NCBI RefSeq assembly: GCF_013752535.1 | Contig: NZ_CP058348.1 | Location: forward strand, 1,364,001 to 1,428,000 | Reading direction: 5' to 3' | Length of the DNA: 64,000 nt | From: Bdellovibrio sp. KM01 | Lineage (GTDB): Bacteria > Bdellovibrionota > Bdellovibrionia > Bdellovibrionales > Bdellovibrionaceae | Shown: piece after piece, positions 21,332 to 29,453 of the stretch | Layout: each line of letters opens with the position of its first letter | Numbering within the stretch: position 1 is the stretch's first letter | Notes under the pieces: generated by a model | The model's input: the letters and a program-made list of their open reading frames with translations, nothing else | Databases searched by the model: none | Told to the model about the DNA's origin: nothing | Made by a program: the position numbers and the translations under genes

Positions 21332-22216
21332 TCACTGTGTGGTGGCCAGACGTCTATTATGCTCCAAAGCATACAGCGCAATATGCCCGGCTAACTCGCC
21401 GGGCTTTTTCGTTGTGCACCACGTTTTTCTTATCAATCGATTAATATTTGCCCGCAACATTGCAAACGTATGATTTAGCGAGAATATCGGATCCCACTTT
21501 AACTTTTTCAATTCTCCCTGGCCAACTACTGCTCCTCGGCCACCCAAAACAGTTTCGTGTCTCGCATAGGGAAAGAATCTTTTTACATCTGCGGGATATG
21601 AAGGATTAGAATCCGATCTTATTACGGCGTATGGATGAACGAATTCTTGCACATCTTGAAAGAGCTTCGCCCTCGCTAGGGGGCGGTGATCCGTTCGAAG
21701 GCCGTACTTCTTTTTTGCGTAATGAACGATACGGCCCTTAGGGGGCATTTGGGCAACCTCGAATCCCAAAATTCTGCGCGTGGAATACTCCACTATTAAG
21801 GTTACTGAAAGAGGCTTGTACTTCGTGTGTTCGAAGGTTTCAAGATCGTCGAACTCCACCTCTGTGGAAGGCCCGAAATTTTTATTCCAGTTAGCGAGCT
21901 CGGTTTTTGCTGTGGCGGTCGCAAAACGAAATTTTCTAACAACCGTTTTCCGATTGATCTTCAGTACTCGCGCGATTTCACGTTGACTCATTTCGCCTGT
22001 TAAAAGATCGCGTATGAGCTTATTTAAATGTCGTTTTTTTTGCCATTTTGCTCGGCTCGTTGTAGCTGCAGAAAAGCTTTTGCCGCAGCGAACACACCAG
22101 AATCTGGTGAGGTATTGACCGTCGGACTTGCGATAATACTTTCCAAGTTTACGAATCGTCCGAACGGCGTTTTGAGGATCTCTTTGCAGATGGCAATGTG
22201 GGCATTTTAGTTTCAT
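21332..22216 (-). CDS. Transposase, zinc ribbon plus HTH plus DDE-like domain (IS1/IS1595-like)
   Basis: A 294-residue protein. A zinc ribbon is formed by Cys5/Cys8 and Cys41/Cys44. A helix-turn-helix lies at about 75-95 (SQREIARVLKINRKTVVRKF). A catalytic core follows, with candidate acidic residues Asp123 (VEFDDLETF), Asp202 (VIRSDSNPSYP) and Glu285 (YALEHNRR). The C-terminal MLRANINRLIRKTWCTTKK is typical of this broad transposase group. The frame is intact, so it may be active or domesticated. Exact IS family cannot be settled by eye. The ribosome site (AGAGG) is unusually close to the ATG, suggesting low translation. Confidence 0.75.
   Translation of the reverse strand: MKLKCPHCHLQRDPQNAVRTIRKLGKYYRKSDGQYLTRFWCVRCGKSFSAATTSRAKWQKKRHLNKLIRDLLTGEMSQREIARVLKINRKTVVRKFRFATATAKTELANWNKNFGPSTEVEFDDLETFEHTKYKPLSVTLIVEYSTRRILGFEVAQMPPKGRIVHYAKKKYGLRTDHRPLARAKLFQDVQEFVHPYAVIRSDSNPSYPADVKRFFPYARHETVLGGRGAVVGQGELKKLKWDPIFSLNHTFAMLRANINRLIRKTWCTTKKPGELAGHIALYALEHNRRLATTQ
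21385..21410 (+). terminator. Intrinsic terminator on the + strand inside the transposase gene
   Basis: GCCCGGC (21385-21391), loop TAACTC, GCCGGGC (21398-21404), then TTTTT. It lies 68 bases past the coiled-coil gene stop but within the antisense transposase coding sequence (codons for about residues 272-278). Confidence 0.75.
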
Positions 22217-25946: not shown

Positions 25947-27227
25947 GTGACTAAAAAGTCCGCTCGTAAAAAGTTATCGCCACGCACGCAAGCCATTCAT
26001 GGTGAGGCACTTTCAAAATCCTGGGAGTTCTCGCATCACTTGATTCCGCCAATGACGGCATCAACAACATTCCGCTTGGGTTCTTTAACTCGTGGTGCAG
26101 AAGGCTTTAGCACTTTCGCCGGACCACAAAATTCTGATCAGCCTATTTGGATTTACGATCGCCTGGAAGAGCCAACGACCAAAATGCTTGAAGACCAACT
26201 CGCTATTTTAGAAAAAGGTGATTGTGCCGTGACGTTTGGTAGCGGCATGGGCGCGATCTCTGCGACCTTGATGACTTTGATGAAAACGGGTCAGAAAGTG
26301 GTTTCTCATAAAACTCTTTATGGTTGCACGTACAGTTTGATCACGAACTGGTTGCCACGTTTTGGTATCGAACATTCCTTGATTGATGTGAATAACTTTA
26401 AAACTCTGGAACAAGAACTGAAAGATCCAAAAACGCGCGTGGTGTATTTTGAATCTGTTTCGAATCCTATTCTGGAAGTCGCTGATTTGGAAAAAATTGC
26501 GGAGCTGGTGAAAGCTGCCAATAAAAAACGGAAGGCCGACGATCGCATCTACACGGTGGTGGATAATACTTTCGCGACGCCGTGGTCTTTGCGTCCCATC
26601 GAATGGGGAATTGATTTCGTTATTCAAAGTTTGACTAAAAATATCTCGGGTTTCGGGACCGAGATGGGTGGGGCCGTGATCTGTCCTAAAGCTTTCGATG
26701 GCCAACTGCGTGTGGCTCGTAAAGACTTTGGCGCGATCATTCATCCATACTCTGCTTGGCATATCCTGGTTTACGGGATCTCGACGCAAGCGATTCGCTT
26801 TGAACAACAACAGGCGACAGCTTTGAAAGTCGCTCAGTTTCTGGAAAAACATCCAAAAGTTGAGAGCGTGACTTATCCGGGCTTAAAGTCTCATCCACAA
26901 AGCAAATTGGCTCGTAAATATCTGGTGTCTCCAGAAAACAACTTTGCTCCGGGCACGATGATCTCCTTTAGACTTAAAGGCGATATGAAGCGTTGTCAGA
27001 AGTTTGTCGACGATGTTGCGCAAAATTCTTATTCGATTACTTTGGCGGTTTCCTTGGGGCTTACGAAAACTTTGATCGAAGTTCCCGGATTCATGACTCA
27101 TTCAGCGATTCCGGAAAACAAGCGTGGAGAAAGTAAAATTGACCCGCGTGCGATCCGCCTCAGTATCGGTCTTGAAAGTGTGAAGGATATTATTGGGGAC
27201 CTTGAAGCCTCGTTGAAACAAGTCTAA
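25947..27227 (+). CDS. Cys/Met metabolism PLP-dependent enzyme (trans-sulfuration family)
   Basis: A 426-residue fold-type I PLP enzyme. YDRLEEPTTKMLEDQLA and TFGSGMGAISATLM form the cofactor phosphate region, VDNTFATPWSLRP carries the PLP-ring Asp206, and VIQSLTKNISG holds Schiff-base Lys231. The family includes cystathionine gamma-synthase, cystathionine lyases, methionine gamma-lyase and O-acetylhomoserine sulfhydrylase; residues visible here do not separate these. The usual SxTKYxxGH is changed to SLTKNISGFG, which is a noticeable departure. The GTG start has a GAGGGGGAA site. An N-terminal basic extension of about 12 residues precedes the usual start of the fold. Confidence 0.87.
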   Translation: MTKKSARKKLSPRTQAIHGEALSKSWEFSHHLIPPMTASTTFRLGSLTRGAEGFSTFAGPQNSDQPIWIYDRLEEPTTKMLEDQLAILEKGDCAVTFGSGMGAISATLMTLMKTGQKVVSHKTLYGCTYSLITNWLPRFGIEHSLIDVNNFKTLEQELKDPKTRVVYFESVSNPILEVADLEKIAELVKAANKKRKADDRIYTVVDNTFATPWSLRPIEWGIDFVIQSLTKNISGFGTEMGGAVICPKAFDGQLRVARKDFGAIIHPYSAWHILVYGISTQAIRFEQQQATALKVAQFLEKHPKVESVTYPGLKSHPQSKLARKYLVSPENNFAPGTMISFRLKGDMKRCQKFVDDVAQNSYSITLAVSLGLTKTLIEVPGFMTHSAIPENKRGESKIDPRAIRLSIGLESVKDIIGDLEASLKQV

Positions 27228-27236
27228 GAAATCCTA

Positions 27237-27265
27237 TTGACCTGACTTCCTGATTGCGACATAAA
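27237..27265 (+). promoter_or_regulatory. Sigma70-like promoter for the TPP-riboswitch transcript
   Basis: TTGACC (27237-27242), 17-base spacer, CATAAA (27260-27265). Expected transcript start is near 27272, which coincides with the 5' edge of the TPP aptamer. Confidence 0.65.
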
Positions 27266-27271
27266 GCTCAG

Positions 27272-27358
27272 CACAACTAGGGGTGCTGCTATTCGTTGTT
27301 GAATGGCGGCTGAGAAATACCCTTTGAACCTGTTTGAGTTAGAACTCGCGTAGGGAAG
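27272..27358 (+). promoter_or_regulatory. TPP riboswitch (THI element)
   Basis: Contains the conserved blocks of the thiamine pyrophosphate aptamer in order: CTAGGGGTGC, a 10-bp P3 stem (27285-27294 with 27301-27310, two G-U pairs, GTTGTT loop), GGCTGAGAAATACCC, TTTGAACCTG, a short P5 (GAG...CTC) and GCGTAGGGAAGTCAC. The latter half matches the E. coli thiM aptamer closely. The ATG of the receptor begins 5 bases after the end of the aptamer, so the AGGGA near 27352-27356 doubles as ribosome-binding site and aptamer 3' strand. Ligand binding is therefore expected to block translation directly. Confidence 0.95.
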
Positions 27359-27362
27359 TCAC

Positions 27363-29453
27363 ATGAAAATACCCGTTCTCTTGGTGTCCGCTATTCTTGG
27401 TGGATTAAGTTTTGAAGCCCGCGGGCAGGAATCCTCTGCCGCCATCCAATTACAAACCGTTTTAGTGAATGAGACTGCAGATACAGATGCTTCTGTGCTG
27501 GGGTTTCCTGGATTTTCTTTGCAGGAAATTCCACTGTCGGCCTCGAGTTACGATGAGGGTGAGCTTCAAAAAAATCGGATTCATCGTCTTTCGGATTTGA
27601 CGACTTTAGACGCATCTCTGACGGATAGTTACAATGCCACGGGTTACTGGGACATGGTTTCTATTCGGGGTTACACCCTGGACAATCGCAATAACTTTCG
27701 CCGGGAAGGTTTGCCGATCAATGCCGAAACCTCCATCCCTTTGGACAATAAGGCTAACGTGCAAGTATTAAAAGGTCTTTCAGGAGTGCAGGCGGGCATC
27801 AGTGCTCCCGGCGGCATGATCAATTATCTGGTCAAGCGTCCCACGGAAAAAAGATTTATCAATCTGCGCTCTGATGTCAGTGATTCTGGAGATTTCCTGG
27901 TATCGGCTGATGCGGGCGGGGCGTCTGCAGAGAATTTAAGTTACCGGGTCAATGTCGCGCAGGAGTACCTGTCGCCACATTTAGATAACGCCAAGGGCTC
28001 AAGAACGTTGCTTGCCGGGGCGGTCAGCTATCGGCTTTTTAACGCAAGTTTATTGGACCTGGAATTAGAGTGGTCCCAGCGCTCGCAACCCAGTCAGGCC
28101 GGGATGAGTTTATTGGGGGCAAGTCTGCCAGCGGTGTCTGATCCAAATATCAACTTGAACAATCAGTCTTGGTCTCAACCGGTGGAGTTTACGGCACTCA
28201 CAGGGACTTTGCGTTACAGTCAGACTTTCGCTGAAAATTTAAATTGGGTGACATCACTGGGTGGCCAGAGCCTGCTTAGCGGAGATCATTTGGCTTATCC
28301 ATTCGGTTGCACGAAAGAGGGAAATTTTGATCGCTATTGTTCGGATGGAACTTTTGATTTCTATGACTTTCGCAGTGACGATGAAAAGCGCGATACTCTA
28401 GCTCTGCGCACATCCTTGGATGGAAAGCTACAAGCGGGCGCTTTGGTGCACTCTTGGAACTTGGGAATAATGGGATGGAAATCTAAAGAGCGGTATCAAA
28501 AACAAGCCTATAATTTTGTGGGCGAGGGGAAAGTTGATGGTTCGGCTGTCGTTCCTGCCGATCCATCCTTGACGGATGAAAGTACGAATCGTGACTCTGA
28601 TAATCTTCAGATTTTTGTATCTGATTCGATTCAACGGGATAAGTGGACGGGATGGTTAGGGGGCAGTTGGAATGGCATCGAGCGCAGCACTGTGCGCACT
28701 GACGGTTCGCGCCCCACAAACTATTATCAAAGTTTTGTCCTGCCGTGGGCGGCCTTGTCTTATCAGTTTGAACAATTGATGGCTTACGCCAGTTATGCCG
28801 AAGGTATGGAGTCTTTTGTCACTCCAAACCGAAACACTTATACTCGTCCAGGTGAATTTTTGGCGGATGTGAAATCCCATCAATACGAAATTGGATTGCG
28901 CGGGGGACGAGATATTCGCTGGGGTTCGGTGCTATTTGAAATTCATCGGCCCGTCGTGATCGACCAGGCACCACTTTATCAAGTGGATGGAAGTGATGTC
29001 CATCGCGGGATTGAGGTGGATTTGCTGCAAGATCTGCAAAGATGGAGCTGGAATTTTAGCAGCCTACTTTTGGAAACGAAGCGCGAAGGCAGCGCTGTGA
29101 ATCCTGTGCTGAATGGAAAAAAGGCCGTCAATGTTCCAGAGGCAACTGCGCGCCTAAGGGTGCAATATCATCTGGTAAGCGTGACCGGTATGTCCATAGG
29201 TGGGCGTATGGTTTATGAGGGTCCTCGAGCCGTCTTGCCCGATAACTCGATCATGTTGCCGGGCTGGGTGCGCTGGGATGCGGGGGTGAGCCTTCAGAAA
29301 AATTGGGGATCCATACCGGTGAAGGCGGAAGTCTTGGTCGAGAATTTGCTGGATCGGAAATATTGGAGAGAATCTCCCACGCAGTATGGCCACGTGTATT
29401 TGTATCCCGGAGCTGAAAGGCTTTTTACTTTGAGTTTTCTGGCGGAAATCTAA
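27363..29453 (+). CDS. TonB-dependent outer-membrane receptor, predicted thiamine or thiamine-precursor uptake
   Basis: A 696-residue receptor: signal peptide (about 1-21, ending ARG), a possible TonB box near LQTVLV (about 30-35), plug domain (about 50-165) with SIRGYTLDNRNNFRREGLP and VQVLKGLSGVQAGISAPGGMINYLVKRP, then a 22-strand-type barrel ending LFTLSFLAEI. The plug order matches siderophore-type receptors, so older annotation by homology would say iron. The TPP riboswitch upstream argues instead for thiamine, its phosphates or precursors. No tonB/exbBD, thiamine ABC or pnuT-type gene is adjacent. Regulation: repressed when TPP is high. A terminator follows directly. Confidence 0.9.
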   Translation: MKIPVLLVSAILGGLSFEARGQESSAAIQLQTVLVNETADTDASVLGFPGFSLQEIPLSASSYDEGELQKNRIHRLSDLTTLDASLTDSYNATGYWDMVSIRGYTLDNRNNFRREGLPINAETSIPLDNKANVQVLKGLSGVQAGISAPGGMINYLVKRPTEKRFINLRSDVSDSGDFLVSADAGGASAENLSYRVNVAQEYLSPHLDNAKGSRTLLAGAVSYRLFNASLLDLELEWSQRSQPSQAGMSLLGASLPAVSDPNINLNNQSWSQPVEFTALTGTLRYSQTFAENLNWVTSLGGQSLLSGDHLAYPFGCTKEGNFDRYCSDGTFDFYDFRSDDEKRDTLALRTSLDGKLQAGALVHSWNLGIMGWKSKERYQKQAYNFVGEGKVDGSAVVPADPSLTDESTNRDSDNLQIFVSDSIQRDKWTGWLGGSWNGIERSTVRTDGSRPTNYYQSFVLPWAALSYQFEQLMAYASYAEGMESFVTPNRNTYTRPGEFLADVKSHQYEIGLRGGRDIRWGSVLFEIHRPVVIDQAPLYQVDGSDVHRGIEVDLLQDLQRWSWNFSSLLLETKREGSAVNPVLNGKKAVNVPEATARLRVQYHLVSVTGMSIGGRMVYEGPRAVLPDNSIMLPGWVRWDAGVSLQKNWGSIPVKAEVLVENLLDRKYWRESPTQYGHVYLYPGAERLFTLSFLAEI

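Follow-up and report, generated by a model that had tools for sequence, protein, structure and literature searches.

A TPP riboswitch predicted to hold the Shine-Dalgarno sequence of a TonB-dependent receptor gene within its aptamer in Bdellovibrio sp. KM01

The first catalogue of THI-element mechanisms was reportedly that of Rodionov et al. in 2002 (JBC). The class termed direct translation attenuation, in which the ribosome-binding site (RBS) is buried in the aptamer core, has TPP riboswitches as a main case (Barrick & Breaker 2007, PMC2258182). Membership requires a start codon no more than 15 nt past the aptamer core, whose end is usually that of P1, and the survey that defined the class found it most often in Actinobacteria and Cyanobacteria (PMC2258182). 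One TonB-dependent transporter of thiamine, OMthi (BT2390) of Bacteroides, is under the control of a TPP riboswitch (PMC5613172). Because both this class and the control of Bacteroides TonB receptors by TPP have been published, the element of KM01 belongs to a known class, that of direct translation attenuation; taken alone, the KM01 locus is ordinary by kind.

The 3.96-Mb genome was searched with the Rfam TPP model (RF00059), and a single TPP riboswitch was found, at 27269-27373 (+) of the window, by which we mean the whole 64,000-nt stretch of DNA that was analysed. The match scored 60.3 bits (E 2.4e-9), above the gathering score of 54.3, and the model was aligned end to end (model positions 1-105). 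An earlier note on this DNA had claimed an aptamer with complete THI blocks and had named an Rfam covariance search as a check; the score exceeded the threshold and the blocks were intact in the alignment. The range given in that note opens at the -35 box (27237) and thus spans the promoter as well as the aptamer (Table 1). P1 consists of three standard pairs only, the two outer consensus pairs being non-standard in the Rfam alignment. A possible 6-bp hairpin, CAGCAC/GTGCTG (27269-27288, +), would compete with P1, P2 and P3 and requires bases 5' of the predicted transcript start.

Table 1. Features of the riboswitch locus, in positions of the window
Feature	Position	Strand	Basis or remark
Predicted promoter	27237-27265	+	-35 TTGACC 27237-27242, 17-nt spacer, -10 CATAAA 27260-27265
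TPP aptamer core (THI element), P1 to P1	27276-27359	+	RF00059 above gathering score
P1 strands, ACU / AGU	27276-27278 / 27357-27359	+	Rfam alignment
CTGAGA	27310-27315	+	Inside aptamer core
P4/P5 arm	27329-27354	+	Rfam alignment, pairs checked; P4 pair 2 covaries in the phylum
P4, CCUG paired with UAGG	27329-27332 / 27351-27354	+	
CG junction of P4/P5 arm	27349-27350	+	
AGGGA, Shine-Dalgarno sequence in aptamer 3' strand	27352-27356	+	AGG in P4, GA in junction before P1
TonB-dependent outer-membrane receptor, 696 aa	27363-29453	+	Pfam Plug, TIGR01783 below cut-off, PDB relatives, orthologues

The AGGGA (27352-27356) is separated by 6 nt from the ATG at 27363, which itself follows the end of P1 (27359) after a gap of 3 nt, and no other Shine-Dalgarno sequence lies within reach of this ATG. 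The 3' end of the genome's own 16S rRNA gene is GGATCACCTCCTTT, and pairing of the leader with this anti-Shine-Dalgarno sequence was calculated at ~ -6.1 kcal/mol. Both the position of the start codon and the placement of the RBS in the core are those of direct translation attenuation. In frame, the nearest later start codons are a TTG and a GTG 18-21 nt 3' of the ATG, and initiation there would drop much of the signal-peptide-like N-terminus (MKIPVLLVSAILGG). Since the ATG follows P1 by 3 nt, there is no space for a separate expression platform, and control by an intrinsic terminator between the aptamer and the receptor gene was ruled out on the same ground. The earlier note had placed the sole Shine-Dalgarno sequence in the terminal strand of the aptamer and had left no room for a platform, both of which agree with these distances; it had also put the ATG just past the aptamer, correctly, except that the distance of five bases given there is 3 nt when counted from P1.

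The pattern TTGAC-N18-CATAA occurred once in the window, against 0.20 occurrences expected. A stricter sigma-70 scan did not list TTGACC-17-CATAAA because its -10 element lacks the final T. In most of the 19 leaders of the genus, a TTGAC-17/18-CATAA-like element ends 8-12 nt 5' of P1, the leaders that deviate in this element being L032, L036, L039, L045 and L047. From this position across the genus, the KM01 transcript is predicted to start at ~27272, ~3 nt 5' of P1. Of the clean promoter that had been claimed for the locus, the element and the predicted start at the aptamer edge thus stand. An ORF at 25947-27227 (+) stops 10 nt short of the -35 box; it encodes a PLP enzyme of Cys/Met metabolism, similar to methionine gamma-lyase, and read-through transcripts from it into the riboswitch are possible. 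Elsewhere in the window, an ORF on the other strand (21332-22216, -) has a CxxC-rich start and a helix-turn-helix-like stretch and resembles an insertion-sequence transposase (putative).

The gene downstream encodes a TonB receptor, as had been proposed. Its Pfam Plug domain scored 37.4 bits against a cut-off of 23.9, and TIGR01783 (TonB-dependent siderophore receptor) was aligned to residues 55-691, covering a receptor-length barrel region after the Plug, with a score of 186.3 bits that does not reach the curated cut-off of 223.5. The PDB sequence relatives are FemA, BauA, FhuA and FoxA, and the sequence resembles siderophore receptors. Orthologues were found in 20 of the 24 genus genomes.

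It is likely that this receptor, which probably imports thiamine or its phosphates, is controlled by a TPP riboswitch through direct translation attenuation. Direct translational occlusion, the mode of action proposed in the earlier note, is the best-supported mechanism, and we infer from it how the leader would respond to TPP. Transcription would begin a few bases 5' of P1. At low TPP, both the P4/P5 arm and P1 would be loose enough for the 30S subunit to bind UAGGGA as the Shine-Dalgarno sequence and to initiate at the ATG, 6 nt downstream. In published TPP-riboswitch structures, TPP contacts the CG next to P4 and the UGAGA. Bound TPP would lock the P4/P5 junction through its pyrophosphate, at the CG adjoining UAGGGA, and P1 would close; the Shine-Dalgarno sequence would then be held within the folded aptamer (P4, junction and P1), the 30S subunit would be excluded and translation would drop.

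The ligand-free ensemble computed with ViennaRNA gave the AGG an unpaired probability of about 0.02-0.2. The AGG was paired in the predicted secondary structure both with and without the TPP-bound fold, tertiary effects lying outside such a prediction, and an ON/OFF model based on secondary structure gained no support for this locus. Since the AGG is predicted to be paired in both states, switching would have to come from the closing of P1, from locking at the tertiary level or from co-transcriptional timing. Opening energies for the bound state were left out of this argument, as they compare unlike ensembles.

Alternatively, TPP might act mainly at the RNA level, through Rho-dependent termination or decay, inside the ORF, of mRNA left untranslated once the RBS is blocked or the aptamer has folded, with direct occlusion as a first or minor step. 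Some translational riboswitches are known to be coupled to Rho, and because the 3 nt between aptamer and ATG offer no space for an intrinsic terminator, any transcriptional effect would sit inside the ORF. However, no sequence sign of a Rho site was seen, and an effect of this kind would supplement the occlusion model and not supplant it. We consider it unlikely that the RNA level is the main site of control.

The case for occlusion draws on a sample of 88 TPP leaders from the phylum, genus included, in which leaders were called direct when the start codon lay within 18 nt of the AGGGA box; L084 was counted as distal although its ATG lies 5 nt past its box. Direct leaders made up 66 of the 88, and most leaders of the Bdellovibrio phylum are therefore of the direct design, which is not special to the KM01 locus. 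The start codon lay 4-9 nt after the box in 55/88 leaders as against 2/440 control anchors, which excludes chance as the source of the AGGGA-start spacing as a family feature. Outside the genus, where leaders counted as direct if no more than 9 nt lay between box and start, the strand read AAGGA(G) in 29/52 direct leaders vs 2/18 others (Fisher 0.001). The second pair of P4 was C-G in 56, U-A in 31 and U-G in 2 of 89 cases and was mispaired in none. The compensated change from C-G to U-A, which makes AGGGA into AAGGA(G), was present in 31 phylum leaders, 30 of which start within 18 nt, and because the pair is never mispaired, the rewritten strand keeps the helix. The U-A leaders belong to families f1, f4, f9, f12, f15, f28 and f29, and the genes that follow them are unrelated, with SSF symporters, a PnuC-type transporter and solute-binding proteins among them. 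Spacing, sequence tuning and compensation agree in marking the AGGGA strand as the RBS.

The same data bear on the idea that AGGGA is conserved as aptamer core alone, with Shine-Dalgarno-independent initiation at an A-rich start and an incidental spacing. The KM01 start context is ATGAAAA, and TPP aptamers conserve AGGGA irrespective of where the start lies, as the 10 distal leaders of the genus also do. Nevertheless, the concentration of starts at 4-9 nt across the phylum, and the rewriting of the strand to canonical AAGGA(G), with P4 compensated, almost only in near-start leaders, make this idea very improbable.

Direct leaders were far rarer in a Gammaproteobacteria-centred sample, at 13/67 under the same rule as the 66/88 of the phylum (p 3e-12), and U-A at the second P4 pair was found in 2/67, both with distal starts. 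This comparison sample was the class of a Methylovorus genome, with ORFs picked mechanically. We take that class to be Gammaproteobacteria in GTDB. Two leaders of family f12, L027 and L080, stand before a Bdellovibrio-type receptor with direct spacing in genomes of this distant family (G091 and G086). Their aptamer 3' halves are near-identical to the Bdellovibrio type, which, together with the type of receptor, suggests that riboswitch and receptor moved jointly by horizontal transfer.

Of the 19 leaders of the genus, 9 were direct, while in the other 10 the start codon stood 47-83 nt past the box. Direct and distal leaders are intermixed on the receptor tree: L042 (distal) has L044 (direct) as its sister, with support 100/100, and L041 (distal) is sister to the direct group that contains the KM01 locus. 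This mixing indicates that, as read from the tree, the design of the leader changed more than once while the receptor gene behind it stayed the same, several changes being needed. The distal leaders of other Bdellovibrio species (L032, L034, L035, L037, L038, L040-L043 and L045) share with KM01 the aptamer family, the orthologous receptor and mostly the same promoter element; unlike KM01, they have their own Shine-Dalgarno sequence. That the KM01 aptamer is degenerate, has lost its ligand response and is kept as an RBS alone is hardly credible, despite the short P1 with its two non-standard outer pairs, given the intact THI blocks and the retention of the aptamer with the receptor in 19 of the 20 receptor-bearing genus genomes. 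One receptor orthologue, L092 (G150:C47:4704-8200), lacks a TPP riboswitch: its ATG stands shortly behind another ORF and has its own Shine-Dalgarno sequence, and the switch may have been lost in nature when the gene became part of an operon.

Two distal leaders, L041 and L043, contain a CCCT segment with two mutually exclusive potential partners, the AGGGAA of the aptamer and the gene's own Shine-Dalgarno sequence. Antisequestor complementarity beat dinucleotide shuffles in these 2 of the 10 distal leaders, and we therefore claim an antisequestor for them alone; such pairing was rejected as a general trait, the other eight doing no better than shuffles. In L043, an 11-bp hairpin (GAAAACAGAAA/TTTCTGTTTTC) 3' of the aptamer sets CTTCCCTGC beside the aptamer's GCAGGGAAG, and its CTTCCCT is also able to pair with the gene's AGGGAA, a textbook antisequestor. 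For the phylum as a whole, we lean toward a history in which the TPP aptamer was adopted as an RBS and tuned by the compensated AAGGA(G) in P4, with repeated switches between direct and platform designs in Bdellovibrio.

Neither ThiC nor thiamine pyrophosphokinase (TPK) was found in the 24 genus genomes. ThiL (TMP to TPP) scored over the cut-off in 20/24, including KM01. Matches to ThiG and ThiE in the genus were weak and partial-length, fell in overlapping stretches of the same ORFs and were treated as an unrelated barrel enzyme. Riboswitch and receptor occurred together in 19 of the 24 genomes, with 4 having neither and 1 the receptor only (Fisher 0.0005); for ThiL and the receptor the counts were 19 both, 3 neither, and 1 and 1 (Fisher 0.0076), the genomes in both comparisons not being independent. 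Published modelling of B. bacteriovorus likewise has thiamine synthesis incomplete (PMC7529429). Because ThiC and TPK are missing and ThiL is mostly present, a role of the receptor in the salvage of thiamine or its phosphates is probable, judging from the ligand class and the missing pathway. The presence of ThiL without TPK favours TMP or TPP as the cargo; the genus may also have an unrelated thiamine kinase. One genome (G137) has receptor and riboswitch, yet neither ThiL over the cut-off nor TPK, and may import TPP itself. The receptor may thus be a route by which predatory Bdellovibrio, without key thiamine synthesis genes, takes vitamin B1 from its prey.

The published HD100 transcriptome paper makes no mention of TPP, thiamine or TonB, and in open-access texts we did not find the phylum-wide prevalence, the compensated AAGGA(G) or the repeated design change in Bdellovibrio described. 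The leader family makes a clear comparative case that selection can favour a ligand-binding RNA core as an RBS in its own right, and within the genus it shows the same switch gaining or losing an expression platform. If this reading is true, the Bdellovibrio leaders are a natural series for how expression platforms arise and vanish.

Compared with known systems, the KM01 leader resembles OMthi (BT2390) in that a TonB-dependent outer-membrane receptor is preceded by a TPP riboswitch, a likeness in arrangement (PMC5613172). B. thetaiotaomicron differs in making thiamine and in having synthesis and pnuT operons under TPP control (PMC5613172), whereas KM01 has one TPP riboswitch and its genus is without ThiC. 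With the class of Barrick & Breaker (PMC2258182) the leader shares a purine-rich 3' strand as Shine-Dalgarno sequence, an RBS in the core and the lack of an expression platform; what differs from their survey is that the Bdellovibrio phylum has the design in most of its leaders and that many members carry the P4-compensated AAGGA(G).
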